A stretch of 64,000 nucleotides of DNA from the NCBI RefSeq assembly GCF_947496515.1, contig NZ_CANMDB010000007.1:62001-126000 (forward strand), given 5' to 3'. This DNA is from an uncultured Roseobacter sp. Lineage in GTDB: Bacteria > Pseudomonadota > Alphaproteobacteria > Rhodobacterales > Rhodobacteraceae. The translations under genes and the position numbers were made by a program. The notes beneath the pieces were generated by a model, which saw only the letters and a program-made list of their open reading frames with translations, ran no database searches and was not told where the DNA came from. Positions 2,035 to 22,580 of this stretch are shown piece after piece. The first letter of the stretch is position 1. Each line of letters starts with the position of its first letter.

Positions 2035-2050
2035 GTAACTATATGGTTAC
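2035..2050. promoter_or_regulatory. Operator dyad, site 1 (GMC gene)
   Basis: GTAACTATATGGTTAC, an imperfect 16-bp palindrome matching 14 of 16 positions of its own reverse complement. It lies 12 bases upstream of the leftward GMC gene start and belongs to a family of seven matching sites, found by eye, all in the first 23 kb. The inferred role is a repressor operator for the GMC gene. Confidence 0.65.
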
Positions 2051-2206
2051 ATTCACGGTGCGCCCACGACCGCTGTTTTGTCAAGACAAGGCCCAAAAGT
2101 GTACGGGATCGCGTATGGCGGCCATGTTGGGCTTCGGTCTGATTCAAGAGGTATCAGCGCTGGCGCTTGACCATCAGCAAAAGCCTCACCGAGTTTGACG
2201 AGCCGC

Positions 2207-2236
2207 TTGACTAACTTTGACAGGGACGTCTCTAAT
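2207..2236 (+). promoter_or_regulatory. Candidate sigma-70 promoter of the CUT1 importer operon
   Basis: TTGACT at 2207-2212 and TCTAAT at 2231-2236 separated by 18 bases. The predicted start falls near 2243, immediately before operator site 2 at 2244-2259. A bound repressor there would block initiation, which supports both calls together. Promoter hexamers read by eye are weak evidence on their own. Confidence 0.45.
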
Positions 2237-2243
2237 GGCGCGG

Positions 2244-2259
2244 GTAACCAAGTGGTTCA
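2244..2259. promoter_or_regulatory. Operator dyad, site 2 (CUT1 importer operon)
   Basis: GTAACCAAGTGGTTCA. The left half is a perfect match to the regulon consensus and the right half has lost its last two bases (TTCA for TTAC). It sits between the candidate -10 and the ribosome-binding site of the sugar-binding-protein gene, 15 bases ahead of the ATG. Confidence 0.6.
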
Positions 2260-2273
2260 TTAGGGAGGAAATA

Positions 2274-3527
2274 ATGAACAAGATCGTCAAAAGAACGCTG
2301 ATGGCGTCGACATGCGTATTTATCGCGGGGTCCGCCGTGGCCGAAAGCGAAGTGGAAGTGCTGCACTGGTGGACGTCGGGCGGTGAAGCGGCCGCGCTGA
2401 ATGTTCTCAAGGAAGACCTGAGTGGGCAAGGTGTTGGCTGGACCGACATGCCGGTTGCGGGCGGCGGCGGCTCTGACGCGATGACGGTCCTGCGCGCACG
2501 GGTCACTGCGGGAGATCCGCCGACCGCCGTTCAAATGCTGGGCTTCGCCATCCAGGATTGGGCGGGCGAGGGGGCTCTGGCCGATCTGAACAAGCTGGCC
2601 GAAGACCAGAACTGGGACGAAGTTGTGCCGGCCGCTTTGCAAGGGTTCTCCAAGCATGACGGCAACTGGGTCGCGGCGCCCGTAAATGTCCACTCCACCA
2701 ATTGGGTCTGGGCGAACACCGCCATCATGGCCGAGCTGGGTCTTGAGCAACCCGCTGATTGGGATGGCTTTGTGGCGGCGATGCAGACGGCGCAGGATGC
2801 AGGCTATGTCGGCCTGGCCCACGGCGGGCAAGCCTGGCAGGACGCGACGATTTTCGACTCGATTGCGATGGGTGTGGGTGGGCCTAAGTTCTATCAGGCA
2901 GCCTTCATTGATCTTGATCCCGACGCCCTGGGTGGTGACCAGATGATCGAAGCGTTCAAGAGAATGGAAACCCTGCGCGGATTTGTCGATGACAACTTCT
3001 CCGGCCGCGATTGGAACCTGGCCTCGGCCATGGTTGCCAACGAGGAAGCGCTGTTTCAGATCATGGGCGACTGGGCCAAGGGCGAGTTCATCAATGCCGG
3101 TCAGACCGCGGGTGAAGAGTTCCAGTGTTTCCGGGTTCCCGGATCTGAGGGCACCGTGACGTTCAATTCGGATCAGTTCGCCATGTTCAGCGTGACGGAT
3201 ACGACCGCGCAAGACGCGCAAATGACCATGGCATCTTCCGTGATGAGCCCGGAGTTCCAGGTGGCCTTCAACACGGTCAAAGGGTCGGTTCCCGCGCGGA
3301 CGGATATCTCCGACGCGGAATTTGATGCCTGCGGTCAGCTTGGCATGGCGCAACTGGCCGAAGCGGCGGCAAACGGCGGTTTGTTCGGCTCCATGGCGCA
3401 TGGCCACGCCAATAATCCGTCGGTTCAGAACGCGATGTATGACGTGATCACGGCTCATTTCAACGGCGAGTACGACGCCGAAACTGCCGCCTCCGAAATG
3501 GTGACCGCCGTCGAATTGGCGCAGTAA
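2274..3527 (+). CDS. Periplasmic sugar-binding protein, glucose/mannose type (CUT1)
   Basis: A 417-residue family-1 extracellular solute-binding protein that delivers a sugar to the permeases encoded next. Residues 1-23 are a Sec signal peptide ending AVA before ESEVEVLHWW. The mature start with VLHWWTSGGE and PVAGGGGSDAMTVLRARV, and later APVNVHSTNWVWAN, are hallmarks I associate with the GtsA-type glucose/mannose-binding subfamily, so glucose, mannose or a close analogue is the best guess. The start at 2274 is chosen because AGGGAGG lies at ideal spacing before it and gives an intact signal peptide; an earlier in-frame ATG would bury the signal. First gene of a four-gene operon, followed by a strong intercistronic hairpin. 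Confidence 0.92.
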   Translation: MNKIVKRTLMASTCVFIAGSAVAESEVEVLHWWTSGGEAAALNVLKEDLSGQGVGWTDMPVAGGGGSDAMTVLRARVTAGDPPTAVQMLGFAIQDWAGEGALADLNKLAEDQNWDEVVPAALQGFSKHDGNWVAAPVNVHSTNWVWANTAIMAELGLEQPADWDGFVAAMQTAQDAGYVGLAHGGQAWQDATIFDSIAMGVGGPKFYQAAFIDLDPDALGGDQMIEAFKRMETLRGFVDDNFSGRDWNLASAMVANEEALFQIMGDWAKGEFINAGQTAGEEFQCFRVPGSEGTVTFNSDQFAMFSVTDTTAQDAQMTMASSVMSPEFQVAFNTVKGSVPARTDISDAEFDACGQLGMAQLAEAAANGGLFGSMAHGHANNPSVQNAMYDVITAHFNGEYDAETAASEMVTAVELAQ

Positions 3528-3535
3528 GCGACCCT

Positions 3536-3563
3536 GGGCTGGTCCGGGTTCCCGGGCCAGCCC
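3536..3563 (+). promoter_or_regulatory. Intercistronic hairpin after the binding-protein gene
   Basis: Two 13-base arms (3536-3548 and 3551-3563) are complementary apart from one G-T wobble and separated by TT. There is no T-tract. Hairpins of this kind between a binding-protein gene and its permease genes commonly stabilise the upstream message so the binding protein is made in excess. That role is inferred here. Confidence 0.7.
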
Positions 3564-3596
3564 ATCGCGGGTACGTCAAAATCGTAAGGGTTTTCC

Positions 3597-4493
3597 ATGG
3601 CGGTTGATACTTCGGTCGACTTGCGCACCAGATTGCAAAACTGGCTGCCCAAGATCGTGCTTGCGCCATCCTTTGCGTTGGTCTTGATCTTTGTCTACGG
3701 CTTCATTCTTTTTACAGTCTACCTCAGCTTCACTGACAGCCGCATGCTGCCCAGCTATGGTCTGGTGGGCTGGGAAAACTATTCAAAGCTCTTCCGCATC
3801 CGCGAATGGGATGTCGCGATCAAAAACCTCGCGATCTTTGCGTCACTCTACATTGTGATCTGCACGTTGATCGGGCTGTTTTTGGCAATTTTTCTGGACC
3901 AGAAAATCCGCGGAGAAGGCGTCTTGCGCCCCATCTTTCTCTATCCCATGGCGCTGTCATTCATCGTCACCGGTACCGCGTGGAAATGGTTCTTGGATCC
4001 CGGGATCGGGATCGAGAACACCATGCATTTGTGGGGCTGGGAGAGTTTCGAGTTCGGCTGGATCAAGGACCGCAATATGGCGATCTATACGATTGTCATT
4101 GCGGCCGTCTGGCAGACCAGCGGGTTTGTCATGGCCATGTTTCTGGCCGGATTGCGCGGCATCGACACCGAAATCCTCAAGGCAGCCCAGATGGATGGGG
4201 CCAGCAACTGGCAGATGTATCGCCGGATCATCATTCCTCAGCTGCGCCCTGCGTTTCTCAGCGCCTTCGTGATCCTTTGCCACCTGGCGATCAAGTCATA
4301 CGATCTTGTGATCGCACTCACCGGTGGCGGGCCGGGCAATGCCACAGCGGTGCCCGCAACATTCATGTATTCCTATACGTTCACGCGCAACCAGATGGGC
4401 ATCGGCGCGTCCTCAGCGGTGATCATGCTGATGACCATCGCCGCCATCATGGTGCCCTACCTCTATGCCGAGTTAAGGGAGAAGAAGGGATGA
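3597..4493 (+). CDS. CUT1 sugar ABC transporter permease, MalF/UgpA type
   Basis: A 298-residue inner-membrane permease, one half of the translocation channel. About six hydrophobic segments are visible, beginning with the helix LAPSFALVLIFVYGFILFTV. The cytoplasmic EAA loop, which contacts the ATPase, is present around EILKAAQMDGASNWQMYRRIIIPQLRP near residue 200. Such proteins pair with a second, shorter permease, which follows here with a 4-base ATGA overlap, indicating translational coupling. It lies 69 bases after the binding-protein gene, the gap being occupied by the hairpin at 3536-3563. Confidence 0.92.
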   Translation: MAVDTSVDLRTRLQNWLPKIVLAPSFALVLIFVYGFILFTVYLSFTDSRMLPSYGLVGWENYSKLFRIREWDVAIKNLAIFASLYIVICTLIGLFLAIFLDQKIRGEGVLRPIFLYPMALSFIVTGTAWKWFLDPGIGIENTMHLWGWESFEFGWIKDRNMAIYTIVIAAVWQTSGFVMAMFLAGLRGIDTEILKAAQMDGASNWQMYRRIIIPQLRPAFLSAFVILCHLAIKSYDLVIALTGGGPGNATAVPATFMYSYTFTRNQMGIGASSAVIMLMTIAAIMVPYLYAELREKKG

Positions 4494-5371
4494 GCGTTGC
4501 AAGCCAGGACAACGCGATGAAAACCGGCCGCGCGGCACGGGTGTTTATCTATGTCTTCCTGCTGGTGTTCGCGCTTTTTTACCTGCTGCCGTTCTTCATC
4601 ATGCTGGTCAATTCGGTCAAACCGCTGAGCGAGATCACGGGCGGCAACATGATCGCCCTGCCGCAGGTCTGGACACTTGAGCCGTGGCTTGGGGCTTGGA
4701 GCACGGCCCAGATCGGGGTCGAACCGACGGGCTTGCGACCTTACTTCTGGAACTCGATCAAGATGGTGGTGCCTGCCGTGGTCATCTGCACGGCGATTGG
4801 CGCGCTCAATGGCTATATCCTGACCAAGTGGCGGTTCCGGGGGGATACGCTGATCTTTGGGCTGATGCTGTTTTCGTGTTTCATCCCGTTTCAGATTGTG
4901 CTGATCCCCATGGCGCGGATCTTGGGCATTTTGGAGATCTCGGGCACGACGACGGGCCTGGTGCTGGTGCATGTGGTCTATGGGATCGGATTTTCGACGC
5001 TCTATTTCCGCAATTACTATGCCGCCTTCCCGACCGAGTTGGTCCGCGCGGCACAGATCGACGGCGCGGGGTTTTTCCAGATTTTCTACCGTATCCTGAT
5101 GCCATCGTCGGGGCCGATTACCGTGGTCTGTGTGATCTGGCTGTTCACGAACATCTGGAATGATTTCCTGTTCGGGGCCTCTTTCGCCAGCGGTGGCGCG
5201 GCACCCATGACAGTGGCGCTGAACAATCTGGTCAACTCGTCAACGGGTGTGCGGGAATACAACGTGCACTTTGCGGGGGCCATTATGGCGGCCTTGCCGA
5301 CCTTGCTCGTCTACATTGTGGCGGGGCGATATTTTGTGCGCGGGCTGATGGCTGGCAGCGTGAAGGGATAA
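4490..5371 (+). CDS. CUT1 sugar ABC transporter permease, MalG/UgpE type
   Basis: A 293-residue permease forming the second half of the sugar channel. The first membrane helix (VFIYVFLLVFALFYLLPFFI) starts near residue 18, and the EAA loop appears as ELVRAAQIDGAGFFQIFYRI near residue 195. The start ATG overlaps the stop of the preceding permease by four bases. The same frame is open far upstream, but that extension only mirrors the first permease gene out of frame and was discarded. The stop is three bases before the ATPase gene start, so all four importer genes are one transcription unit. Confidence 0.92.
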   Translation: MSVASQDNAMKTGRAARVFIYVFLLVFALFYLLPFFIMLVNSVKPLSEITGGNMIALPQVWTLEPWLGAWSTAQIGVEPTGLRPYFWNSIKMVVPAVVICTAIGALNGYILTKWRFRGDTLIFGLMLFSCFIPFQIVLIPMARILGILEISGTTTGLVLVHVVYGIGFSTLYFRNYYAAFPTELVRAAQIDGAGFFQIFYRILMPSSGPITVVCVIWLFTNIWNDFLFGASFASGGAAPMTVALNNLVNSSTGVREYNVHFAGAIMAALPTLLVYIVAGRYFVRGLMAGSVKG

Positions 5372-5374
5372 GAC

Positions 5375-6481
5375 ATGGGATTTCTGGACATCAAGCAGGC
5401 GACCAAGTCCTACGGATCTGTCGAGGTGTTGCACGGCGTGGATATTGCCGTGGAAGAGGGTGAGTTTCTGGTGCTGGTCGGTCCTTCGGGTTGCGGAAAG
5501 TCCACTCTTTTGAACATGATCGCCGGTCTTGAGGACATCACCACCGGCGAGATCGCCATCAAGGGCCAACGCATGAACGGCGTACACCCGTCCAAACGCA
5601 ATATCGCGATGGTGTTCCAGTCCTACGCTTTGTACCCCAACATGACAGTGGGCCAGAACATCACCTTTGGGTTGGAGATGCACGGCACGCCCAAGGCCGA
5701 TCGCGACAAGGCGATGGGCGAGGTGGCGGAGCTGTTGCAGATCACGCCGCTTCTGGGGCGCAAGCCGGGGCAATTGTCTGGTGGGCAGCGTCAGAGGGTG
5801 GCGATGGGGCGCGCGCTGGTGCGCAACCCTGACGTATTCCTGTTTGATGAACCGTTGTCGAACCTGGATGCCAAGCTGCGCGTCGACATGCGCACGGAGA
5901 TCAAGAAACTGCACCAGCGCTTGGGAACCACGATTGTCTATGTCACCCATGACCAGATCGAGGCGATGACGCTGTCGACCCGGATTGCCGTGATGAACGG
6001 CGGCTACGTTCAGCAGCTCGGGACGCCCAAGGAAATCTACGACAACCCCGCCAATGTCTTTGTCGCCTCCTTTATGGGGTCGCCGTCCATGAACCTCATG
6101 GAAGGGGTCGTGCGGATGCAGGGCGCGGAGGCTGCGGTCGAGATTGCAGGCAGTTCAGGTGTGCCTGTGCTCTTGCCGGTCAACGTCGCCGCGCAAAGGC
6201 TGGACGGACAGACCGTGCTGTTGGGCATTCGGCCCGAGGCATTGACAGACCCGGATGGTGCCGACAAGAACGCGCGGCGGATCGTTACCTTGAGTAATGT
6301 TGTGGACGTCACCGAACCTGCCGGATCCGATACGTTTTTTACCACCACGCTCGCAGGTAAAGATACGATTGGCCGGATGCGCGCTGATGCGGTTGCGGTA
6401 CCCGGGCAGGTGGCGCAGATGGCCATCAACATGGATAAGGCCGTGCTGTTCGACCCCACAAGCGGAGACCGCATTCGCTAG
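5375..6481 (+). CDS. Sugar ABC transporter ATP-binding protein, UgpC/MsmK type
   Basis: A 368-residue ATPase that powers the CUT1 importer. Seen in order: Walker A GPSGCGKST near residue 37, the Q-loop in MVFQSYALYP, the ABC signature LSGGQRQRVAMGRA near 134, Walker B VFLFDEPLSNLDAKLR near 155, and the H-loop VTHDQIEAMTLSTRI. The C-terminal 120 residues form the regulatory TOBE-type domain typical of MalK/UgpC proteins. The length matches the family (about 350-370). It closes the four-gene operon, and sits three bases after the second permease gene. Confidence 0.93.
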   Translation: MGFLDIKQATKSYGSVEVLHGVDIAVEEGEFLVLVGPSGCGKSTLLNMIAGLEDITTGEIAIKGQRMNGVHPSKRNIAMVFQSYALYPNMTVGQNITFGLEMHGTPKADRDKAMGEVAELLQITPLLGRKPGQLSGGQRQRVAMGRALVRNPDVFLFDEPLSNLDAKLRVDMRTEIKKLHQRLGTTIVYVTHDQIEAMTLSTRIAVMNGGYVQQLGTPKEIYDNPANVFVASFMGSPSMNLMEGVVRMQGAEAAVEIAGSSGVPVLLPVNVAAQRLDGQTVLLGIRPEALTDPDGADKNARRIVTLSNVVDVTEPAGSDTFFTTTLAGKDTIGRMRADAVAVPGQVAQMAINMDKAVLFDPTSGDRIR

Positions 6482-6887: not shown

Positions 6888-7523
6888 CTAAGCGGCCACC
6901 AGTCTCTTGATCGTCTCGACGTTGAACTCGATGCGGGCCGCAAGGGCTTCAGGAGCGGTCAGGTCCCGGTCAAAAACAATGGATCCGGTAAAGCGGTTGG
7001 TCAGATAATAATAGCCGATAGCGGCAATCGTGATGTTGACCTGTGTCGGATCAAGACCGAGGCGAAAGGTGCCCTCGCGCACGCCGCGGTCAAGCAATTC
7101 GTCCATCATGCCAACGAATTTTGCGCTGATCTCGGGGATCAGTTTGGATTTCTTGAGATGCCGGGCCCGGTGCAGGTTTTCGCTATTCACGAGGGTAATG
7201 AACTCGGGGTTCTTGAGATAGTAAGCCCAGGTAAATCGCACCAATTTTTCCAGTGCGTCCATGGCTGGCATGTTGTCGAGGTCGAGCTTTTGTTCGGCGG
7301 TGCGGATGTCCAGATAGGCTTCTTCCAAAACCACTTGGAACAGGTCCTCTTTCGAGCCGAAGTAGTGATAAATCATCCGCTTGTTGGCCTTGGCGCGCTC
7401 GGCGATTTCATCAACCCGCGCCCCGGCAAGACCATGTTTAGCGAATTCCTTTTTGGCGGCAGCCAGAATGCGCGCCTTGGTTTTTCCGGCGTCGCGCGTC
7501 TTGGTCTTGTCGGAGGTCGCCAT
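6888..7523 (-). CDS. TetR-family transcriptional regulator, probable repressor of the catabolic island
   Basis: A 211-residue TetR/AcrR protein. The N-terminal helix-turn-helix is clear at about residues 14-60 (ILAAAKKEFAKHG, then VDEIAERAKANKRMIYHYFGSKEDLF). The rest is the all-helical ligand-binding and dimerisation domain. An ATG at 7523 was preferred to a longer in-frame start because the upstream extension is Cys-rich and unlike the family, and the chosen start gives the usual length. It is the only DNA-binding protein among the first 26 kb and lies in the middle of the island, so it is the best candidate to bind the 16-bp dyads. RutR, another TetR protein, also uses a 16-bp palindrome, so the operator size fits. 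The ligand is unknown. Confidence 0.9.
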   Translation of the reverse strand: MATSDKTKTRDAGKTKARILAAAKKEFAKHGLAGARVDEIAERAKANKRMIYHYFGSKEDLFQVVLEEAYLDIRTAEQKLDLDNMPAMDALEKLVRFTWAYYLKNPEFITLVNSENLHRARHLKKSKLIPEISAKFVGMMDELLDRGVREGTFRLGLDPTQVNITIAAIGYYYLTNRFTGSIVFDRDLTAPEALAARIEFNVETIKRLVAA

Positions 7524-7649: not shown

Positions 7650-7661
7650 GTAACTAGTTAG
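7650..7661. promoter_or_regulatory. Degenerate operator half between tetR and the CUT2 operon
   Basis: GTAACTAGTTAG carries the left half of the regulon operator and an internal perfect 10-bp palindrome (TAACTAGTTA), but the spacing to a right half is shorter than in the other sites. It lies 126 bases before tetR and 126 before the CUT2 binding-protein gene. It may be a weaker, autoregulatory version of the operator. A further dyad, GCTGAC-AG-GTCAGC, lies at 7707-7720. Confidence 0.35.
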
Positions 7662-7786
7662 TGCATTATTGGCGTTGGTGAGATTGATCACGCGTCATAG
7701 AGGGGGGCTGACAGGTCAGCAGACGTGGATGCTGCGTCAGGGCTTTTGCGCCCGCTGCGGCGCAGGATGAAAATAGGGAGGACACC

Positions 7787-8896
7787 ATGTCATTCATCAA
7801 GGAATACATCGAAAAGGAAACCATCAACCGCCGCAACCTGTTGATCGCCAGCGCCTATGGTCTGGGTGGCGTTGCGGCCACCGGCCTTTTGGGCACTGGC
7901 ATGGCGCGCGCCGCAATTGCGGACCCCACAGTAGCCTGGTCGTATCGCAACCGCACTAACCCCTACTGGAATGAGATTGTCAGCGGTGGCGAGGCGTTCA
8001 TGGAGGGTATCGGCAAATCCAAGGGCGAACTCGTGCACCTGATCAACGAAGGGTCGTCGGAAAAGTCTTTGGCGGATGTTAAGGCGACGCTGGCGCGCAC
8101 CAATGGCGAACTTGCACTGGCGATTGACACCAACGATGCGCCAAACGCGCGCCCTGTCGTCGAAGCCTGCGTCGACGCGGGCGCCTTTGTGTCGACCCTT
8201 TGGAACAAGACAGATGATCTGCACCCTTGGGACTTTGGCGACAACTATGTCAGCCATATGAGCTGGTCCGACGAAGGTCCCGCCGAGCAAACCGCACGCA
8301 TCCTTCTGGACGCAATCGGCGGTACGGGTGGTATCGTGCATCTGGGTGGTATCGCATCCAACAACCCGGCGATTGAGCGCCTGAACGGTCTCAAAAATGC
8401 GCTCAAGGACTATCCCGATGTGGAACTGTTGGCAGCAGAGCCCGCCGATTGGGATACCCAGAAAGCCAACCAGGTCATGTCCGCCTTCCTGACCCGCTTC
8501 GGGGATGAGATCAAAGGGGTTCACTGTGCCAACGATACCATCGCCTACGGCGTGCTCGAAGCGCTGCGCGCCGAAGGGATCGACGACATGCCGATGGTAT
8601 CCTACGACGGCAACCCGCAGGCTGTTCAGCTTGTGGCAGAGCGCAAGATCCTCGCCACCGTGTTCACCAACCCGCATTGGGGCGGTGGCATCACGGCATC
8701 GCTGGCGTATCACGCCGCGACCGGGCATTTCAAACCGTCCGAAGAGCCCAAGGAGCACCGCGAGTTCAATGGCCCGACGATTTTCGTCACGCCCGAGGAC
8801 GCGGTCGCATTCAAGGCCAGTTATCTGGACGACGTGCCAACCTACGACTGGACAGATTTCTGGGGTCCGTCGAACGGTCCGATTGTCTACAAGTAA
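7787..8896 (+). CDS. Periplasmic sugar-binding protein, ribose/LacI-like type (CUT2)
   Basis: A 369-residue binding protein of the periplasmic-binding/LacI fold. The N-terminus carries a twin arginine at residues 15-16 (NRRNLL) followed by a hydrophobic stretch and ARA near residue 42, suggesting Tat export, which is unusual for this class and would imply folding before export. The body shows the family pattern: VHLGGIASNNPAIERLNGLK near residue 185, a second-lobe segment GVHCANDTIAYGVLEALRAEG, and VSYDGNPQAVQLV. AGGGAGG lies before the ATG. It heads a four-gene importer operon with two permeases and a double ATPase. The ligand is unknown; the class usually binds pentoses, hexoses or polyols. 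Confidence 0.9.
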   Translation: MSFIKEYIEKETINRRNLLIASAYGLGGVAATGLLGTGMARAAIADPTVAWSYRNRTNPYWNEIVSGGEAFMEGIGKSKGELVHLINEGSSEKSLADVKATLARTNGELALAIDTNDAPNARPVVEACVDAGAFVSTLWNKTDDLHPWDFGDNYVSHMSWSDEGPAEQTARILLDAIGGTGGIVHLGGIASNNPAIERLNGLKNALKDYPDVELLAAEPADWDTQKANQVMSAFLTRFGDEIKGVHCANDTIAYGVLEALRAEGIDDMPMVSYDGNPQAVQLVAERKILATVFTNPHWGGGITASLAYHAATGHFKPSEEPKEHREFNGPTIFVTPEDAVAFKASYLDDVPTYDWTDFWGPSNGPIVYK

Positions 8897-8904
8897 GGGC
8901 TGAA

Positions 8905-8943
8905 CGGCGGCGATCCGGCAGGCCGGACCGCCGCGGTCTTTTT
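8905..8943 (+). terminator. Intercistronic hairpin with T-tract after the CUT2 binding protein
   Basis: Arms 8905-8910 and 8928-8933 pair over six bases, with a bulge and an inner five-base stem (8914-8918 with 8923-8927), and TTTTT follows at 8939-8943. This looks like a partial terminator lowering transcription into the permease genes. It parallels the hairpin after the CUT1 binding-protein gene. Confidence 0.65.
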
Positions 8944-9008
8944 CAAAGACAGAAACACCGCGGTGGGTGCGACGGCGTCTGCACCGACCGAGAGGGGGAG
9001 GGGACGTC

Positions 9009-10007: not shown

Positions 10008-10016
10008 GGGCGGGCA

Positions 10017-11522: not shown

Positions 11523-11532
11523 GGGGGTGAGC

Positions 11533-14172: not shown

Positions 14173-15678
14173 ATGGATACGCAGACTTCGACCCGCACGC
14201 CCCCGCCCGAACCCCGCACATTCGGTTTTTACGTCGGCGGGCAACCCGTGGCCGCCGGAGAGCGGGAGGTGTTTGAGCGCGCGTCGCCGGGCCATGGTGT
14301 GCCGGTGACGCGCATCCCGACGTGTTCTGCCCAGGATGTGGACATGGCCGTGGCCGTCGCGCGTGAAGCGTTTGAAGACCGCCGTTGGTCGGGCCTTTCG
14401 GGTGCGGACCGTGCGGCTGTGCTGCTGAAAACTGCGGATATCATGCGCGCCCGTCTGGACGAGATCGCCTATTGGGAGAGCCTTGAGAACGGCAAGCCCA
14501 TCGCGCAGGCGCGGGGCGAAGCGACGGGTTGCATCGGGATGTTCGAATACGCCGCCGGTCTGGCGCGCGCGCTGCACGGAGACAGCTTCAACAATCTGGG
14601 CGACAGCATGTTTGGGCTGGTGACACGGGAACCCGTGGGGGTTGTGGGGCTGATCACGCCGTGGAATTTCCCGTTCCTGATCCTGTGCGAACGGGTGCCC
14701 TATATTCTGGCGTCGGGCTGCACGATGGTGACCAAACCATCCGAGATGACATCCGCGACCACGCTCATGCTGGCCGAGATCCTGACCGAAGCCGGACTGC
14801 CCGATGGCGTGATGAATGTGGTGACCGGACCGGGCAGCACTGTGGGCACTGCGATGACGGAGCATATGGACATCGACATGTTGTCCTTTACCGGATCAAC
14901 TGCGGTGGGTCGCTTGTGTGTCGAGGCTTCCGCACGGTCGAATTTCAAGAAGCTGGGGCTGGAGCTGGGGGGCAAGAACCCGCAGATCGTCTTTGCCGAT
15001 GCGGACCTTGAGGATGCAGCGGATGGGGTTGCCTTTGGCATTGCCTTCAACACCGGTCAATGCTGTGTATCGGGATCGCGCCTGATCGTTGAGCGGTCCG
15101 TGGCGGATGAGTTTGCCAGGCTTGTTGCCGACAAGATGTCGAAAATCCGCATTGGCGATCCACTGGACGAGAACACGCAGGCCGGGGCAATCACAACCGA
15201 TGCCCAGAACCGGGTGATCATGTCCTATATCGCGAAAGGACAGGAAGAAGGCGCGACCCTTGCTTACGGTGGCGAGCAATTGGACCTGGGGATGGGCCAA
15301 TACGTGAGCCCGGCCCTGTTCACGGGTGTCACCGGCGACATGGCGATTGCCAGGGACGAGATCTTTGGCCCCGTCCTGACGGTACAGGAGTTCGACACGG
15401 TGGACGACGCGATCGCGATCGCGAATGATACGGTCTACGGCCTCGCCGCGAGTGTCTGGACCAAGAACATCGACAAGGCGCTGACCGTCACCCGGCGTGT
15501 CAAGGCGGGTCGGTTCTGGGTCAATACAACGCTCTCGGGCGGACCCGAATTGCCGCTAGGGGGGTTCAAGCAATCCGGCTGGGGTCGCGAGGCAGGCATG
15601 ATGGGCGTAGAAGAATACACACAGGTTAAATCCACCCATATCGAGATCGGCAAGCGCAGCCCGTGGGTCGACGGCTGA
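14173..15678 (+). CDS. Aldehyde dehydrogenase (NAD(P)+)
   Basis: A 501-residue enzyme oxidising an aldehyde to a carboxylic acid. Seen: the substrate/cofactor segment TPWNFPF near residue 170, FTGSTAVGR near 240, the general-base glutamate E264 in LELGGKNP, and the catalytic cysteine in GQCC (residues 297-298). The C-terminal PLGGFKQSGWGRE is typical of the family. The start at 14173 follows GGAGGACA; an earlier in-frame ATG was rejected because it lies before that site. Its stop overlaps the start of the following GMC gene (TGATG), so the two enzymes are coupled: the GMC oxidoreductase would make the aldehyde and this enzyme the acid. Confidence 0.93.
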   Translation: MDTQTSTRTPPPEPRTFGFYVGGQPVAAGEREVFERASPGHGVPVTRIPTCSAQDVDMAVAVAREAFEDRRWSGLSGADRAAVLLKTADIMRARLDEIAYWESLENGKPIAQARGEATGCIGMFEYAAGLARALHGDSFNNLGDSMFGLVTREPVGVVGLITPWNFPFLILCERVPYILASGCTMVTKPSEMTSATTLMLAEILTEAGLPDGVMNVVTGPGSTVGTAMTEHMDIDMLSFTGSTAVGRLCVEASARSNFKKLGLELGGKNPQIVFADADLEDAADGVAFGIAFNTGQCCVSGSRLIVERSVADEFARLVADKMSKIRIGDPLDENTQAGAITTDAQNRVIMSYIAKGQEEGATLAYGGEQLDLGMGQYVSPALFTGVTGDMAIARDEIFGPVLTVQEFDTVDDAIAIANDTVYGLAASVWTKNIDKALTVTRRVKAGRFWVNTTLSGGPELPLGGFKQSGWGREAGMMGVEEYTQVKSTHIEIGKRSPWVDG

Positions 15679-17312
15679 TGGCAAGCGGGTTCGATTACAT
15701 CATTGTCGGCGGCGGATCGGCGGGCTGTGTTCTGGCAAACCGGCTGACCGAGAACCCCGATTGCTCGGTGTTGCTGCTGGAAGCGGGCGGCACGGATCGC
15801 CATCCGCTGATCCACATGCCGGTGGGCTTTGCCAAGATGACGACCGGGCCGCATACGTGGGGCTTCACCACTGTGCCACAAAAACACGCCAACAATCGCG
15901 AGATTCCCTACGCGCAGGCGCGGGTGATTGGTGGTGGATCGTCGATCAACGCCGAGGTGTTCACCCGGGGCATACCGGCTGACTACGATCGGTGGGCGCA
16001 GGAGGAAGGTTGTGACGGCTGGGCATTCGAGGATGTGCAAAAGTATTTCTTGCGGTCCGAGGGGAACACCTTTCTGTCGGGTGACTGGCACGGCACGGAC
16101 GGCCCGCTTGGGGTGTCCAGCCTGGCGCCGCAACCCATGACAAGCGCCTTCGTTCAAAGCTGTCAGGAACTGGGCATCCCCTATAACCCCGATTTCAACG
16201 GCGCGGTGCAGGCCGGTGCGGGGGCCTATCAGACGACCACCAGAAACGGACGGCGATGTTCGGCGGCGGTAGGCTATCTGAACCCGGTCAAGAAACGCGC
16301 CAATCTGACCGTCCGGACCGACGCCTTTGTTCGCCGGGTACTGATAGAAAACAACCGCGCCATCGGGGTCGAAGCCTGGTCCGACAGGACAGGAACCGAG
16401 ACCTTGCGCGCCGAAAGTGAAGTGCTGCTCACAACGGGGGCCATCGGGACGCCCAAGCTGATGCTACTGTCAGGGATAGGACCGGCTGCGCATCTCGCCG
16501 AACATCACATTGATGTTGTGCAGGACCTGCCGGGTGTCGGCGAAAACCTGACCGATCATTTCGGGATCGATATTGTGGCTGAGCTGACCGGACACCAAAG
16601 CCTGGACAAATACAACAAACCGCATTGGGCGATGTGGGCCGGGCTGCAATATCTGTTGAATCGAACCGGGCCCGTTGCGTCCAACGTGGTTGAGGGTGGT
16701 GCGTTCTGGTATGCGGACCACGAGGCACCGACGCCCGATTTGCAGTTTCACTTTCTGGCCGGTGCCGGGGCCGAAGCAGGCGTGCCAAGCGTCTCTCCGG
16801 GCTCATCCGGTGTCACGCTCAACAGCTATACTCTGCGGCCCAAGTCGCGCGGTACGGTTCGGTTGCGTTCGTCTGATCCAAAAGATTTACCGCTGGTGGA
16901 CCCCAATTTCCTGGGGCACCCAGGTGATCTCGGGACCTCCGTCGAAGGGGTGAAAATCAGCAAGGAGATATTCAGTCAACCATCGTTGCAAAAGCACATT
17001 CGCAAGATCCGGTTCCCGGATGACAGCGTGAAGACCCAAGGGGATTTTGAGGCCTATGCGCGTCAGTACGGGCGCACATCCTATCATCCGACCTGCACCT
17101 GCAAGATGGGCGCTGACAGTGACCCGATGGCGGTCGTGGACCCCCAATTGCGGGTGCGCGGTGTGGATGGGTTGCGGATTTGCGACAGTTCGGTGATGCC
17201 GTCGCTGATCGGGTCGAATACCAACGCGCCCACAATCATGATTGGCGAAAAGGCGTCTGACCTCATTCGCGGAAACCGGTCGATGACGCTGCCGGAAGGA
17301 CAGGCGCTTTGA
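15678..17312 (+). CDS. GMC-family FAD-dependent oxidoreductase, second paralogue
   Basis: A 544-residue flavoprotein, paralogue of the product at 392-2023. The FAD motif GGGSAGC is near residue 11, GGGSSINAEVFTRG near 85, and the C-terminal SYHPTCTCKMG supplies the active-site histidine. The expected chemistry is alcohol to aldehyde oxidation with an unknown electron acceptor. The start ATG overlaps the aldehyde dehydrogenase stop. Having two GMC genes in one regulon suggests either two alcohol groups on the same compound or a mixture of related substrates. Some GMC relatives oxidise sugar C3 hydroxyls instead, which remains possible. Confidence 0.9.
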   Translation: MASGFDYIIVGGGSAGCVLANRLTENPDCSVLLLEAGGTDRHPLIHMPVGFAKMTTGPHTWGFTTVPQKHANNREIPYAQARVIGGGSSINAEVFTRGIPADYDRWAQEEGCDGWAFEDVQKYFLRSEGNTFLSGDWHGTDGPLGVSSLAPQPMTSAFVQSCQELGIPYNPDFNGAVQAGAGAYQTTTRNGRRCSAAVGYLNPVKKRANLTVRTDAFVRRVLIENNRAIGVEAWSDRTGTETLRAESEVLLTTGAIGTPKLMLLSGIGPAAHLAEHHIDVVQDLPGVGENLTDHFGIDIVAELTGHQSLDKYNKPHWAMWAGLQYLLNRTGPVASNVVEGGAFWYADHEAPTPDLQFHFLAGAGAEAGVPSVSPGSSGVTLNSYTLRPKSRGTVRLRSSDPKDLPLVDPNFLGHPGDLGTSVEGVKISKEIFSQPSLQKHIRKIRFPDDSVKTQGDFEAYARQYGRTSYHPTCTCKMGADSDPMAVVDPQLRVRGVDGLRICDSSVMPSLIGSNTNAPTIMIGEKASDLIRGNRSMTLPEGQAL

Positions 17313-17373: not shown

Positions 17374-18192
17374 CTAGTCGAAATCAGGCGCCCATGGCAC
17401 GAGGTCCTTGCTCACGATCCGGTAGTTCGTGTGGGTCAGCGCGTCGATTTTGTCCATATCGATCGAGGACAGCGTAAAGTCCATGATGTCGAAATTGGCG
17501 GTCAGGTTTTCGCGTTTGGTGGACATGGTGTTGATGCTGACACCCTTTTGCAGGATCCAGCGCAACACCACCTGCGCGGCCGTCTTGCCATATCCAGCAC
17601 CGATCTCCGCAAACTCCGGATGTTTGAAGACTTCGCCCCGGGCGACGGATGAGTAGGACGACAGCGGAATGCCGGTTTCGGATGCTGCGGCCAGCAGGAT
17701 GTCCTGATTGAGCAGCGGATGAAACTCCACCTGGTTTGTGACGATCGGTGCCTCTACTATCTTTACGGCGTCGCGCATCATCTGAGCGGTGTAGTTTGAC
17801 ACACCGATATTGCGGGTCAGACCGTGGGCGTGCGCTTGCTCCAACAGTTTCAGCGGGCTTTCGATCTGGAAATCCGCCGGAGGCCAGTGCAGCAGCAGCA
17901 CGTCAACGTAGTCAACCTGAAGATCTTTGAGGCTTGCCTCGACCGAAGCGAGGAATTTGCTTTCCTCGAAATTGTCGTTTTCAACTTTGGTTGTGATGCA
18001 TAGCGCGTCGCGCGAGATCCCGGTTTCCTTCAGGGCGGCACCGGTTTCGGCCTGATTGCGGTACATCTGCGCGGTGTCAAAGCTGCGATACCCGACCTCG
18101 GCGGCGGTGAGAATTGCGTCACGGCACTCGTCCCCCGTGAGCGGATAGGTACCAAAGGACCGCTGGTGGGTTTTTTGAAAATAGATATTCAT
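17374..18192 (-). CDS. Aldo/keto reductase, DkgA/DkgB-like
   Basis: A 272-residue NADPH-linked reductase of the 2,5-diketo-gluconate reductase branch. The catalytic tetrad is readable: D39 in FDTAQMYRN with the tyrosine Y44, the lysine in ITTKVEN near residue 70, and the histidine in LLLHWPP near 101. The TIM-barrel length is normal. GAGGAGG precedes the ATG at 18192. An operator dyad lies 28 bases upstream of this start. The position between the alcohol/aldehyde-oxidising operon and the CoA operon suggests a role in interconverting a keto or aldehyde intermediate. Confidence 0.9.
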   Translation of the reverse strand: MNIYFQKTHQRSFGTYPLTGDECRDAILTAAEVGYRSFDTAQMYRNQAETGAALKETGISRDALCITTKVENDNFEESKFLASVEASLKDLQVDYVDVLLLHWPPADFQIESPLKLLEQAHAHGLTRNIGVSNYTAQMMRDAVKIVEAPIVTNQVEFHPLLNQDILLAAASETGIPLSSYSSVARGEVFKHPEFAEIGAGYGKTAAQVVLRWILQKGVSINTMSTKRENLTANFDIMDFTLSSIDMDKIDALTHTNYRIVSKDLVPWAPDFD

Positions 18193-18219: not shown

Positions 18220-18235
18220 GTAACTTAATGGTTAC
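18220..18235. promoter_or_regulatory. Operator dyad, site 4 (leftward aldo/keto reductase)
   Basis: GTAACTTAATGGTTAC, with flanks extending the symmetry to TTAA arms over 18216-18239. It is one of the best-conserved copies. It lies 28 bases before the leftward aldo/keto reductase gene, and 71 bases away from the next operator, which serves the rightward CoA-transferase gene, so this divergent region has one operator per promoter. Confidence 0.7.
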
Positions 18236-18258: not shown

Positions 18259-18306
18259 TTGCCTGAGCCGTAATTTCGCGCCATATTCAATTAACTGTAT
18301 GGTTAC
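18259..18306 (+). promoter_or_regulatory. CoA-transferase operon promoter with operator dyad, site 5
   Basis: TTGCCT (18259-18264), 17 bases, then CATATT (18282-18287) form a plausible promoter. The operator TTAACTGTATGGTTAC is at 18291-18306, covering the predicted start point. The ATG of the CoA-transferase gene follows at 18340. The operator differs from consensus only in its first base. Confidence 0.55.
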
Positions 18307-18339
18307 TTACGCGCGCCTGCTATGAGGTAGGGAGGAACA

Positions 18340-19923
18340 ATGCCGAAAATCATGTCTGCACGGGAAGCCGCTGACCTCATCCCGGATGGGGCTGTTGTGG
18401 CCGTGAACTCGTCCAGCGGGTTGTGTTGCCCCGACGCGGTGATGGCCGGAATTGGTGCCCGGTTTGACGAAACGGGCGCGCCGCGTAACTTGACCACGAT
18501 CCATCCGATTGCCGCCGGGGACTTCTTTGGGACGAAGGGGATCGACCATATCGCTAAAAAGGGGTGTCTGGCGCGGGTGATTGGCGGATCCTATCCAAGT
18601 GGACCAACAAAGGCAGAGCCACCGCTGATCTGGCAGATGATTGTCGCCAACGAGGTTGCGGCCTACAATGTGCCTTCGGGTATCGTGTTCGACATGCTGC
18701 GCGAGGGCGCTGCGAAACGACCTGGTGTGCTGACCAAAGTGGGCATGGACACGTTCGTAGACCCGCGCCTGGAGGGCTGTGCCATGAATGACCTGGCCCG
18801 CGAGACGTCTATCGTGGAGGTGCGGGAATTTGACGGAGAGGAATGGCTATACTTCAAGGCGCTGAAACCAGAGATCTCCATCATCCGGGCGACCACGGCG
18901 GATGAGCGGGGCAATCTGAGCTTCGAACATGAAGGAGCCTATCTAGGCGCAATGGAAATGGCGCTGGCGGCGCGGAACACGGGCGGTACGGTGATTGCGC
19001 AGGTCAAACGTGTGGCGAAGGCCGGGTCGATCCGGGCGCATGATGTGACCGTTCCGGGTATTCTGGTGGATGTGATCGTCGAGGCACCCGACCAGCTTCA
19101 AACCACTGCTACCCAATATGATCCTGCGATTTCGGGCGAGTTGATCCGGCCCGTCGACAGCTTTCAGAACGCAGAGTTCAATATCGGCAAGGTGATCGCC
19201 CGCCGTGTCGCCACCGAGATGCAACCTGGCTGGGCCGTGAATATCGGTTTCGGTATTTCCGCCAATGTGCCGCGCATCTTTGTCGAAGAGGGATGCCATG
19301 GCGATGTCACCTGGATGATCGAACAGGGTGCGGTCGGTGGCGTACCTCTTTTGGATTTCAAGTTCGGATGCTCCGCCAATGCCGAAGCCTTTGTCGCCTC
19401 GCCGCACCAGTTCTGCTATTTTCAGGCGGGTGGTTTCGATTGTTCGCTACTGTCGTTCCTGGAGGTCGGAGCGGACGGCTCTGTCAACGTGTCCCGCCTG
19501 TCGGCAACACCCCACCGCACCGCCGGGGCGGGTGGATTTGTCGACATCACATCACGCGCCAAAAAGATTGTCTTCTCAGGCATGTTCAACGCCGGTGCCA
19601 AGATGCGGCTTGAGGACGGCGCGCTTGTCATCGACCGCGAGGGCAAGATCGCGAAATTCGTGGAGACCGTTGATCAGGTTTCCTTTTCCGGCAAGCGGGC
19701 GGTCGAACAAGGTCAGGATATCACCTATGTAACGGAACGCTGTGTGATGAAGCTTGAAGACCGCGGGTTGGTTGTGACAGAGATTGCGCCCGGGATCGAA
19801 CTGGAGCGTGATATTCTGGATCAGGCAGGCACCGGTCTGCATGCGGCCAATGATCTCAAGAAAATGGATGCGGCATTGTTTCGCGAGCCCCCGATCGGGT
19901 TGGCCGGGCGCCTGTCCGCATGA
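18340..19923 (+). CDS. Family I CoA-transferase (YdiF/propionate CoA-transferase type)
   Basis: A 527-residue protein with both CoA-transferase halves fused. It would move CoA from an acyl-CoA donor to a carboxylic acid made in the upstream oxidations. The catalytic glutamate, which forms the thioester intermediate, is most likely E328 in WMIEQGAVGG, equivalent to the ExGxxGG motif of this family. The N-terminal half shows the typical IGGSYPSGPTK and PSGIVFDMLR segments. AGGGAGGAA lies before the ATG. The enoyl-CoA hydratase gene starts inside its stop codon (ATGA). This makes CoA activation an explicit step of the island's pathway without ATP use. Confidence 0.9.
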   Translation: MPKIMSAREAADLIPDGAVVAVNSSSGLCCPDAVMAGIGARFDETGAPRNLTTIHPIAAGDFFGTKGIDHIAKKGCLARVIGGSYPSGPTKAEPPLIWQMIVANEVAAYNVPSGIVFDMLREGAAKRPGVLTKVGMDTFVDPRLEGCAMNDLARETSIVEVREFDGEEWLYFKALKPEISIIRATTADERGNLSFEHEGAYLGAMEMALAARNTGGTVIAQVKRVAKAGSIRAHDVTVPGILVDVIVEAPDQLQTTATQYDPAISGELIRPVDSFQNAEFNIGKVIARRVATEMQPGWAVNIGFGISANVPRIFVEEGCHGDVTWMIEQGAVGGVPLLDFKFGCSANAEAFVASPHQFCYFQAGGFDCSLLSFLEVGADGSVNVSRLSATPHRTAGAGGFVDITSRAKKIVFSGMFNAGAKMRLEDGALVIDREGKIAKFVETVDQVSFSGKRAVEQGQDITYVTERCVMKLEDRGLVVTEIAPGIELERDILDQAGTGLHAANDLKKMDAALFREPPIGLAGRLSA

Positions 19924-20672
19924 TTGATCTGAGAGTTGCCGGGCATGTGGCGCGGCTGGTGCTGGACCGGCCCGAAAAGCTGAATGCGTTGACGGCCCCG
20001 ATGTGCGACGACCTGATTGCCCGCTGCCGCCAGATTGAACGCAGCGATGCGCGCGTGGTTATCCTTTCCGGCGGCGGCAAAGCGTTTTGCGCCGGGGGCG
20101 ACATTGAGGCGTGGTCCGGTGAATCTGCCGAAGCCTTCGGGGATCATTGGGTGCGCGATGGACATCTGGCCTTTGACGCGCTCGCGCGATTGACGGTGCC
20201 GGTGATCGCGGTGCTGGATGGCCATGCGCTTGGCGGTGGACTGGAGCTTGCCGCCTGCGCGGACATCCGCATTGCAGAGGATCACATCAAGATCGGTCAA
20301 CCCGAGACTGGGCTCGGGATCATCCCGGGCTGGTCCGGCACGCAGCGCGCGGTCCGTCGGTTCGGCGCACAGGCGGTGCGCCGTATGGCGGTGATGGGCG
20401 AGGTATTCACGGCAATGGAAGCACAGGCGCTTGGCATCGTGGACAGGGTCGTCCCCAGAGGGCAGGGCGCGGCAGAGGCGGATGCGATCGCGAAAAAGGT
20501 CTGCACCCGCGGACCGCAGGCCACCAAGCTGACCAAGATGCTGGTAAATGCCGCCGATGGCGAAGATCCCGAACGCGTGCTCGAGGCGCTGGCCGGGCGC
20601 ATCGCGGCGGGGACGGAAGAGTTGCAAGAGGGATTGGCCGCGTTCCTCGCCAAGCGCCCGCCAAAATTTTAG
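19920..20672 (+). CDS. Enoyl-CoA hydratase/isomerase (crotonase family)
   Basis: A 250-residue crotonase-fold enzyme acting on an acyl-CoA thioester. The oxyanion-hole segment GGGKAFCAGGDIE is near residue 50, and both acidic catalytic residues of true hydratases appear in place, in GGGLELAACADIRIAE and GQPETGLGIIPG near residues 104 and 124. It is therefore likely to hydrate a 2-enoyl-CoA rather than act only as an isomerase. Translational coupling with the CoA-transferase is shown by the ATGA overlap. Substrate not known. Confidence 0.9.
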   Translation: MIDLRVAGHVARLVLDRPEKLNALTAPMCDDLIARCRQIERSDARVVILSGGGKAFCAGGDIEAWSGESAEAFGDHWVRDGHLAFDALARLTVPVIAVLDGHALGGGLELAACADIRIAEDHIKIGQPETGLGIIPGWSGTQRAVRRFGAQAVRRMAVMGEVFTAMEAQALGIVDRVVPRGQGAAEADAIAKKVCTRGPQATKLTKMLVNAADGEDPERVLEALAGRIAAGTEELQEGLAAFLAKRPPKF

Positions 20673-20682
20673 GGAGATTTCG

Positions 20683-20994
20683 ATGATCCGTCACTTTGTT
20701 CATCTGCGGTTTCGCAGCGATGTGAGCAATCCGCAGAAACAGGCGCTTTATGATGCTCTTGCGGGCCTGTCAGGGCATATCGACGGCATACTCGATTTTC
20801 AACATCGCGAGAATGTGTCGGTTGAGACGCCACTGGTCCGCGGCTTCCTCGACATGTTCTGGTTTGATTTTAGGGATGTGGCCGTCCGCGATGCCTATCT
20901 GGTGGATGCCACGCATCAGGCCATTGGCGGGCGCATTGTTGAGCACCTCGAGGGTGGCGCGGGTGGTGTGTTTGTCTGTGACGTAGAGGTTTGA
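20683..20994 (+). CDS. Dabb-family (stress-responsive alpha/beta barrel) small protein
   Basis: A 103-residue protein with the ferredoxin-like Dabb fold: it opens MIRHFVHLRFRSDV and has the conserved later segment RDAYLVDATHQAIGG before a C-terminal strand. Relatives include small enzymes that cyclise or dehydrate polyketides and many of unknown role. It follows the hydratase gene by 10 bases with AGGGAG before the ATG, so it belongs to the CoA-transferase operon and could catalyse a small rearrangement of an intermediate. The role is inferred only from position. Confidence 0.8.
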   Translation: MIRHFVHLRFRSDVSNPQKQALYDALAGLSGHIDGILDFQHRENVSVETPLVRGFLDMFWFDFRDVAVRDAYLVDATHQAIGGRIVEHLEGGAGGVFVCDVEV

Positions 20995-21003
20995 GCCAGT
21001 CGC

Positions 21004-21450
21004 CTAGAGATCAAAGATGAGGCGATTCTGGCCTGATTGAACCACGTCTCCCGATTGGTTGGTGACAGAGACATCCAGGATCACAATGCCTCGCTTGCCT
21101 GAGGAGGTGGTGCGTTTTTCGGCAACCTGAAATGTGGCAGTAATCATGTCGCCGACATGGACCGGCGCAGTGAAATCCCACGTCCAGCCCAGGGAGGCCA
21201 GCGCGTCAATGCGGGCAGGGGCGGTATTCTTCAACCCGTCAATCAAGGACAGGATCAGCAACCCGTGGGCAACGCGCGCAGCAAAGCCCCGCGCCTGTGC
21301 TGCGGCATCGTCCATATGGATGGCGTAGCGGTCGCCGCTGAGCTCGGCAAAGTCGTCGATCATCGCGGCGGTAATCGGTCTGCCGGTGGTCCTGATCCGG
21401 TCACCGGGAGAGAGATGGGCGAACCCGTATAGGCCCGGTTTCAGGGTCAC
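21004..21450 (-). CDS. MaoC-like hot-dog dehydratase
   Basis: A 148-residue protein of the MaoC/(R)-hydratase hot-dog family. The signature is visible at FAELSGDRYAIHMDD near residue 34, with the catalytic Asp and His, and RVAHGLLILSL near 60. Such enzymes hydrate enoyl-CoA to (R)-3-hydroxyacyl-CoA, the opposite stereochemistry to crotonases, so the island carries both kinds. The start overlaps the stop of the upstream aldo/keto reductase by four bases. It converges with the CoA-transferase operon with only nine bases between the stop codons. Confidence 0.88.
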   Translation of the reverse strand: MTLKPGLYGFAHLSPGDRIRTTGRPITAAMIDDFAELSGDRYAIHMDDAAAQARGFAARVAHGLLILSLIDGLKNTAPARIDALASLGWTWDFTAPVHVGDMITATFQVAEKRTTSSGKRGIVILDVSVTNQSGDVVQSGQNRLIFDL

Positions 21451-22463
21451 GCGGGCACGGGCGCATCGTCGCGCAGCAGGCCCTTATGCTTCAGCTCGCC
21501 CCAGAAATCAGCCGGGATCTCATGGCTGAACCATTTGAGGTTCTGCCGCAGCTGATCGACGTTTCGGGTGCCAGCGATGAAGGATGGAATAGCAGGGTGC
21601 GCTACGACAAATTGCAGCGCGGCAGCGGGCAGCGGCACGTGGTGATCGGCGCAGACCTCTTCGATCCTGGTGACCTTTTCCATGATCTCGGGCGGCGCGG
21701 AGGTATAGTTGTACTTTGCACCCTCCCTGGCGCCGGTCGCGAGAATGCCCGAATTGAAACCGCCGCCCACAAGCACGGCTGCGCCACGTTCCTCGCACAG
21801 GGGCAGGAAGGTATCTTGCGCGTCCTGTTCCAAAAGCGTGTAACGGCCCGCCAGCAGAAACGCATCGAAGTCGCGCTGTTCCAGTGCGGTCTGGCACACC
21901 TGCCATTCGTTCACGCCGACACCGATTGCCTTGACCACGCCTTCGTCACGCAGCTTTTCCAGCGCCTTGTAGGCTCCGTCCATCGCCTGTTTGAAAACCT
22001 CGGGCTGCTCGTCGCCACGGGTGAAGACATCGATGTCGTGGATGAAGACGATGTCCATACGCTCCAGCGCCAGCCTTTGCAGGCTGTCCTCGAATGCGCG
22101 CATGGTGCCGTCATAGGTGTAGTCAAACTCCATCACATTGGGGGCAGCATTGACCCAAGGGGTAAAGTCGATCTGGTTGCGCGGGGCCGGCACGAGGCGG
22201 CGCCCGACCTTGGAGGCAAGCACGAAATCATCGCGGTTTTTCCAGCGCAGCGCCTCGCCCGTGCGCAGCTCCGACAGGCCGTGACCATACATCGGGGCGG
22301 TGTCATAGATCCGCACGCCAGCGGTCCACGCGGTATCGAACATCGCAGTAGAGGTTTCGTTATCGATTTCGCGCAGGAAGTTGCCAACCGGGGCGGTGCC
22401 AAAGCCAAAAGCGGTGACCTCAAGGTCCACGTGGCCAAATCTGTTCTTATGCGATGGATCCAT
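21447..22463 (-). CDS. Aldo/keto reductase, D-threo-aldose (L-fucose)/pyridoxal 4-dehydrogenase type
   Basis: A 338-residue aldo/keto reductase of the branch that oxidises sugars at C1 to lactones (D-threo-aldose 1-dehydrogenase, L-fucose dehydrogenase) or pyridoxal to a lactone. Seen: FGFGTAPVGN near residue 20, the tetrad Asp and Tyr in YDTAPMYGHG near 54, the lysine in LASKVGRR near 84, and the histidine in VFIHDIDV near 141. The sugar-type assignment supports a carbohydrate-like substrate. GGAGGG precedes the ATG. An operator dyad lies 18 bases upstream. It heads a two-gene leftward operon with the MaoC gene. Confidence 0.88.
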   Translation of the reverse strand: MDPSHKNRFGHVDLEVTAFGFGTAPVGNFLREIDNETSTAMFDTAWTAGVRIYDTAPMYGHGLSELRTGEALRWKNRDDFVLASKVGRRLVPAPRNQIDFTPWVNAAPNVMEFDYTYDGTMRAFEDSLQRLALERMDIVFIHDIDVFTRGDEQPEVFKQAMDGAYKALEKLRDEGVVKAIGVGVNEWQVCQTALEQRDFDAFLLAGRYTLLEQDAQDTFLPLCEERGAAVLVGGGFNSGILATGAREGAKYNYTSAPPEIMEKVTRIEEVCADHHVPLPAAALQFVVAHPAIPSFIAGTRNVDQLRQNLKWFSHEIPADFWGELKHKGLLRDDAPVPA

Positions 22464-22480
22464 ATCGCACCCTCCCGTAA

Positions 22481-22496
22481 GTAACCAATTGGTTAA
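22481..22496. promoter_or_regulatory. Operator dyad, site 6 (leftward aldo/keto reductase/MaoC operon)
   Basis: GTAACCAATTGGTTAA, whose inner 14 bases (TAACCAATTGGTTA) are a perfect palindrome. It is 18 bases before the leftward gene and overlaps a candidate -10 on that strand, 17 bases after a TTGATC. This is the most symmetrical copy of the regulon operator. Confidence 0.7.
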
Positions 22497-22536
22497 CTGT
22501 GTCGCAGCTTTGGATCAAGATCAAGTATTGAATCGC

Positions 22537-22580
22537 TTGACGCGGTTCTGTGGCCTTCCTAAAAGTAACTGAATGGTTAC
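22537..22580 (+). promoter_or_regulatory. Acyl-CoA dehydrogenase operon promoter with operator dyad, site 7
   Basis: TTGACG (22537-22542), 17 bases, then TAAAAG (22560-22565) form a candidate promoter. The operator GTAACTGAATGGTTAC is at 22565-22580, covering the predicted start point. The acyl-CoA dehydrogenase ATG follows at 22600. Sites 6 and 7 are 84 bases apart in the divergent region and each is close to its own gene. Confidence 0.6.

Follow-up and report, generated by a model that had tools for sequence, protein, structure and literature searches.

A shared inverted repeat at the promoters of a Roseobacter catabolic island and its probable recognition by a TetR-family regulator

The island and its palindromic sites

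A 64,000-nucleotide stretch of the genome of an uncultured Roseobacter sp., referred to here as the window, contains an island of about 26 kb in which a gene for a TetR-family regulator lies among genes for importers and enzymes, and several of these genes are preceded by a 16-bp inverted repeat (the dyad). According to Pfam assignments, the island begins with a GMC oxidoreductase (GMC1; 392..2023, minus strand; PF00732/PF05199) and a CUT1-type importer comprising a binding protein, two permeases, and an ATPase (2274..6481, plus strand). The regulator, with TetR_N and TetR_C_29 domains and proposed here to bind all operators (6888..7523, minus strand), is the sole transcription factor named by the Pfam searches of the island. 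It is followed by a CUT2 (ribose-type) importer with binding protein, permease, ATPase, and permease (7787..12474), a zinc alcohol dehydrogenase (12474-13496), a cupin-like protein that falls below Pfam cut-offs (13509-14078), and an aldehyde dehydrogenase (ALDH) with a second GMC oxidoreductase (GMC2; 14173..17312), all on the plus strand. The right part encodes the aldo/keto reductase AKR1 (17374..18192, minus strand); a CoA-transferase, an enoyl-CoA hydratase, and a Dabb protein (18340..20994, plus strand); a MaoC-like dehydratase (21004-21450, minus strand); the aldo/keto reductase AKR2 (21447-22463, minus strand); and an acyl-CoA dehydrogenase (ACAD), an SDR protein, a DUF993 protein, and a TIM-barrel isomerase-like protein (22600..26497, plus strand). 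The approximately 17 enzymes of the original prediction are corrected by this annotation to 15 enzyme-like genes, beside its two importers.

Seven dyads had been listed in that prediction as operators of a single regulon, and all seven 16-mers were recovered from the window at the positions given for them. Sites were scored with a matrix derived from 64 distinct sites of relatives, with the window excluded, and are given without a strand. An exact match, the symmetric predicted operator GTAACTATATGGTTAC (2035..2050; 30.7 bits), lies 11 bp before the GMC1 start codon. Predicted operators of comparable score precede ALDH by 43 bp (ATAACCAAATAGTTAC, 14114..14129; 26.0 bits), AKR1 by 27 bp (GTAACTTAATGGTTAC, 18220..18235; 30.2 bits), the CoA-transferase by 33 bp (TTAACTGTATGGTTAC, 18291..18306; 29.4 bits), AKR2 by 17 bp (GTAACCAATTGGTTAA, 22481..22496; 26.1 bits), and ACAD by 19 bp (GTAACTGAATGGTTAC, 22565..22580; 30.0 bits). 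The remaining site, GTAACCAAGTGGTTCA (2244..2259), before the CUT1 importer, has two mismatches, one perfect half, and one altered half, and scores 9.2 bits. All seven are found 11-43 bp ahead of start codons, with -35-like TTGAC boxes at promoter distance; upstream of the 22565 operator, for example, the arrangement is TTGACG-17-TAAAAG.

The number of sites is far above chance. Allowing at most two mismatches, GTAACYNNNNRGTTAC matches the window nine times, where 1.46 matches are expected and 100 shuffles give four at most. Seven of the nine are the listed sites, and the other two (28718 and 28865) fall within the coding region of a GntR/FCD gene situated outside the island, on its right, where the matrix of relatives gives them just 3.5 and 4.0 bits. 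With the same matrix the six highest-scoring places in the window (26.0-30.7 bits) are six of the seven listed sites, followed by a place at 7650 (9.8 bits), the 2244 site, and then the next window place at 5.4 bits.

Clustering extends to the whole genome (4.93 Mb in 61 contigs). Exact GTAACYNNNNRGTTAC occurs three times, always within the island, and the exact core TAACYNNNNRGTTA occurs at seven places, six of which are listed sites in the island; the seventh (C2:114), about 113 bp away from the end of a contig, was treated as a chance match. At up to two mismatches, GTAACYNNNNRGTTAC has 131 places in the genome, and this level is uninformative genome-wide because a backward-read control exceeds it with 334. 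The earlier statement that no dyad was seen outside the island is therefore essentially right for the exact core, which does not match unrelated promoters in this genome. A separate, GC-rich 16-bp palindrome (GTTACCCRYGGGTAAC / GTAACCCRYGGGTTAC) forms an array elsewhere in the same genome, where seven copies are listed within about 360 bp (C2:536675-537032). In family genome G072, which has 17 exact matches to the dyad pattern, those listed are all of this form, and arrays are also present in G001, G226, and others.

Conservation of the dyad and its association with TetR

The comparison with relatives covered 110 loci around TetR relatives (1.6 Mb), 80 from genome contigs and 30 from family genomes, the window's own locus included. 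Many of these neighbourhoods repeat parts of the island, and dyad-bearing islands are found in Rhodobacterales, Hyphomicrobiales, and Geminicoccaceae. The loci contain 70 dyads (29 exact) when one mismatch is allowed, whereas 20 control palindromes made by shuffling the letters of the dyad occur 0-25 times (median 4.5). None of the 70 lies inside a matched gene; 60 are located no more than 400 bp upstream of a matched island gene, and 10 are in neither position.

In these orthologous islands the sites recur at the same genes. Distinct upstream regions were counted when they scored at least 14 bits, and the resulting counts are descriptive because the cut-off was picked after the scores had been seen and the loci are related. 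The dyad precedes GMC1 in 16/16 regions, the CoA-transferase in 8/8, AKR2 in 5/5, ACAD in 8/9, and AKR1 in 5/6, with lower counts for CUT1 (2/4), MaoC (1/4), tetR (11/92), CUT2 (3/71), and GMC2 (1/70). No region reached 14 bits for a set of mostly operon-internal genes (CUT1_P1, CUT1_P2, CUT1_K, CUT2_P1, CUT2_A, CUT2_P2, ADHzn, cupin, ECH, Dabb, SDR, DUF993, and AP2), nor did any shuffled upstream region or gene interior. Two plasmid islands held out of the matrix, those of Sagittula P11 and Rhizobium TH2, have dyads ahead of ACAD, AKR2, and CoA-transferase/AKR1, and the Rhizobium TH2 island has a further 15.9-bit place between CUT2 and tetR. On Sinorhizobium meliloti pSymA, whose record has no gene table, three places score 16.9-26.7 bits and are accompanied by variants.

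Several features of individual islands were observed alongside. An extra dyad in Sagittula (L112:21131) is located 54 bp ahead of a gene that encodes a heme-binding protein and adjoins tetR, making that gene a possible additional regulon member. In seven loci (L034, L041, L054, L056, L058, L103, and L105) a LacI-like box, AAACGTTT or close to it, abuts the GMC1 dyad, which suggests a second regulator at the GMC1 promoter in those species. Large parts of the island reside on plasmids (L112/L113, L121, and L122) of Sagittula P11 (49 kb), Sagittula MA-2 (72 kb), and Rhizobium TH2 (98 kb), and on the Rhizobium plasmid the island is followed by electron-transfer flavoprotein genes. Immediately to the right of the island in the window is a tRNA-Ala (ggc) gene (26930-27005); tRNA genes are a common edge of mobile islands.

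Dyad presence follows the regulator among 295 family genomes, 20 of which encode a close TetR (at least 59% identity). Of the 20 genomes that encode a close TetR, 18 have the exact dyad, compared with 36/275 of the others (Fisher p 5e-13). It is lacking from two close-TetR genomes: G228, and G209, whose CoA-transferase and ACAD genes have near-exact dyads. At individual genes, among the best 30 loci for the CoA-transferase, which had matches in 65 genomes, the dyad accompanies 18/18 orthologues in genomes with a close TetR and 5/12 in genomes without, and over all 21 ACAD loci the corresponding counts are 15/15 and 2/6. When 15 genomes were searched for TetR under relaxed conditions, G139 and G102 proved to have fragments of it at contig ends; with these two genomes reassigned, the counts become 20/20 versus 3/10 for the CoA-transferase (p 6e-5) and 16/16 versus 1/5 for ACAD (p 8e-4).

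The regulator itself has the properties expected of its family. Its TetR_N helix-turn-helix domain is recognized at 59.4 bits (PF00440; cut-off 24), and an AlphaFold model (pLDDT, the predicted local distance difference test score, of 88.2) adopts a TetR fold with a predicted all-helical C-terminal domain for ligand binding and dimerization. Across 98 orthologues, residues 46-55, the recognition helix, show 99.5% identity, compared with 69% for residues 63-211. A structure search with the model indicated no ligand, although families absent from its list may still apply. Two solved TetR structures, 3npi (Corynebacterium diphtheriae) and 2d6y (Streptomyces coelicolor SCO4008), have 22-28% identity to the island TetR, and for these neither operator nor ligand information was found in this analysis. 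GTAAC dyads also lie near two TetR paralogues, L021 (50% identity) and L026 (43%), which suggests that this arm may be common to the wider TetR_C_29 group.

The asymmetric site between tetR and the CUT2 importer

What had been noted at 7650 as a weaker half of the dyad is present and is better described as a complete, asymmetric candidate operator, GTAACTAGTTAGTGCATTA (7650..7668, plus strand), in the intergenic region between tetR and CUT2, 17-18 bp after a -35-like TTGAC. It raises the number of predicted operators from the seven proposed to eight, six of the listed sites being strong and the one at 2244 weak. Read outward, its halves are TAAGTAACY and TAAYGCACY. A strict match to it occurs once in its own genome.

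The site is the strongest conserved block in its intergenic region. GTAACYNNNNRGTGC was found in 79/79 tetR-CUT2 intergenic regions examined (73 distinct contexts), preceded by AA in 72 and followed by RTTA in 63, and under another filter the asymmetric block was present in 72/72 distinct regions. TTGAC starts 23 or 22 bp before GTAACYNNNNRGTGC in 76/79 regions, compared with 0/79 for a stretch of the same width lying farther upstream. The held-out Sagittula P11 and Rhizobium TH2 islands likewise carry the asymmetric site ahead of CUT2.

A scan of 113 sequences (1.77 Mb) for the asymmetric form returned 99 occurrences of GTAACYNNNNRGTGCR, 82 of them upstream of CUT2. Of the other 17, seven adjoin tetR, and three of the seven (L015, L016, and L059) face GMC2. 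Three more precede CUT1, AKR1, or MaoC/ACAD, and two lack a matched gene nearby. The last five lie in loci for which no gene table was loaded, and two of them precede CUT2. Among the 17, no position within a matched gene was seen. Six control patterns, one with the letters CAATG[CT], gave 0-6 matches, and spacers of 3 or 5 bases gave none. One perfect half beside one altered half is also the composition of the CUT1 sites of the window and of L046, L093, and L095.

Based on these data, a two-class arrangement may be proposed tentatively, as something possible rather than probable. Promoters of the regulator and the importers would have asymmetric operators, with TAAYGCACY or a similar altered half beside one TAAGTAACY half, and would leak or open first; enzyme promoters would have symmetric operators that bind more tightly and open later. 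The two classes would set the order of induction, and their grading would have persisted throughout Rhodobacterales, Hyphomicrobiales, and Geminicoccaceae in a mobile module whose pathway includes the DUF993 enzyme. An alternative, whose likelihood falls not far short of even, is that the 7650 site is not a graded TetR operator and that its altered half is maintained by an overlapping -10 or start region or by another protein. The site does overlap a predicted promoter, given the position of TTGAC in nearly all regions, and according to PMC2723105 a degenerate site precedes the gene for the regulator AmtR, which is not autoregulated. On the other hand, the altered half also precedes GMC2, CUT1, AKR1, and MaoC in some loci, and the strict form AGTAACYNNNNRGTGCRTT, present in 18/295 family genomes, tracks the regulator: it occurs in 14 of the 20 close-TetR genomes and in 4/275 of the others, two of these four having TetR fragments and two having none.

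A model for control of the island

A simple model would account for these observations. The dyad is shared at the heads of putative transcription units, absent inside genes, and conserved with the TetR, as in a local TetR regulon. It is highly probable, judging from sequence comparison, that the dyads are operators of the TetR at 6888-7523 and that this protein represses the island of two importers and 15 enzyme-like genes. A TetR dimer would recognize GTAAC-N6-GTTAC, an inverted repeat with the half-site TAAGTAACY, at the eight predicted operators and thereby control eight putative transcription units that include both importers and all enzyme-like genes, with tetR itself probably controlled through the asymmetric operator at 7650. 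Since the operators are predicted to cover the core promoter or the start of transcription, bound TetR would block RNA polymerase there, and an imported substrate or pathway intermediate would release it, so that the island would be induced together. The one-regulator interpretation of the original prediction is thus supported by comparison with relatives; repression is suggested by operator position. The refuting outcomes named with that prediction that sequence data can address did not occur: the core dyad spares unrelated promoters, and orthologous islands have it at corresponding genes. One repressor very probably switches the island through a shared dyad, and distant relatives share this wiring.

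Several observations weigh against this model. Upstream of ALDH the dyad is present in 17/63 regions of relatives, and neither held-out plasmid island has a dyad ahead of ALDH. The 2244 site at the first importer is a weak predicted operator, and the second half of the 7650 site departs from the consensus. G228 has a TetR of 59% identity and no exact dyad. The genomes and loci compared share kinship and are not phylogenetically independent, and the promoter positions are themselves predicted from sequence.

The dyads might instead be bound by another regulator encoded elsewhere, with TetR as a linked passenger. Four genomes without a detected TetR (G164, G157, G079, and G227) do retain a dyad at the CoA-transferase or ACAD gene, and 36/275 family genomes without a close TetR contain an exact dyad at some place. 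The four genomes, however, are drafts of 80-96% completeness, and for 12 of the 36 the listed places contain only GTAACCC...GGGTTAC, a different and unrelated palindrome. The dyad co-occurs with TetR even where tetR adjoins different genes, and at nearly every locus examined an asymmetric operator is found in the promoter next to tetR, which together make another regulator very unlikely. A chance origin, as AT-rich palindromes picked by eye, draws on the way in which the sites were chosen and on the occurrence of unrelated GTAACCC...GGGTTAC palindromes in the family; it is contradicted by the shuffles, the control palindromes, and the gene-specific conservation, and can practically be dismissed.

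TetR could also activate these promoters rather than repress them. Activation is formally possible, some TetR-family proteins being activators, and Vibrio harveyi LuxR is described as both activator and repressor. The operators, in contrast, coincide in part with the start region or with the spacer between -35 and -10, a blocking position. Their distance of 11-43 bp from start codons, together with the -35-like boxes, makes promoter-blocking repression the most likely mode, and activation would be a distinct surprise.

Comparison with described TetR-family systems places the proposed regulon within a known type. In Corynebacterium glutamicum, AmtR and McbR control multi-operon regulons through the operators CTAT-N6-ATAG and TAGAC-N6-GTCTA (PMC2723105). 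These have the same arm-N6-arm geometry as the island dyad but differ in their arms (GTAAC/GTTAC in the island) and in their target genes. FabR, FadP, LiuQ, PsrA, and RutR are TetR-type regulators of other pathways, and the first four, which act in fatty-acid or branched-chain amino-acid metabolism of Proteobacteria, resemble the proposed regulator in exerting TetR control of CoA-ester pathways over several operons (PMC5343134); the island differs in its sugar-type importers and other enzymes, and FadP, LiuQ, and FabR were compared by description only.

By NCBIfam cut-offs the island TetR is not RutR, PsrA, or BetI. The PsrA (Vibrio) equivalog scores 34.6 bits against 300, and the equivalogs for RutR, a regulator of pyrimidine catabolism, score 43.2 against 368 and 43.1 against 230 bits, with about 21% identity and different targets. 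BetI, a repressor of the TetR family, is encoded next to a GMC dehydrogenase and an aldehyde dehydrogenase, a neighbourhood that recalls the island. A choline/betaine system was nevertheless rejected on scores for BetI (35 against 201 bits), betA (496 against 732), and betaine-aldehyde dehydrogenase (462 against 669). Mevalonate was considered as a substrate, a degradative HMG-CoA reductase adjoining the island on the Sagittula P11 plasmid; it was not adopted because that gene reads with a separate TRAP/SDR unit. In open-licence PMC text, no paper was found on DUF993, the dyad motif, the island module, or its pathway, nor any match for six S. meliloti locus tags. The regulon is judged to be a new one of a type already known.

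With this analysis, a catabolic module that is widespread in Alphaproteobacteria and occurs on chromosomes and plasmids, S. meliloti pSymA included, gains a predicted regulator with its operator and a regulon that can be tested. Derepression of the island would offer a direct route to the substrate of the module and to the function of DUF993. If the division into asymmetric and symmetric operators is true, the island would represent a compact natural case in which evolution has tuned operator strength so that import precedes catabolism.

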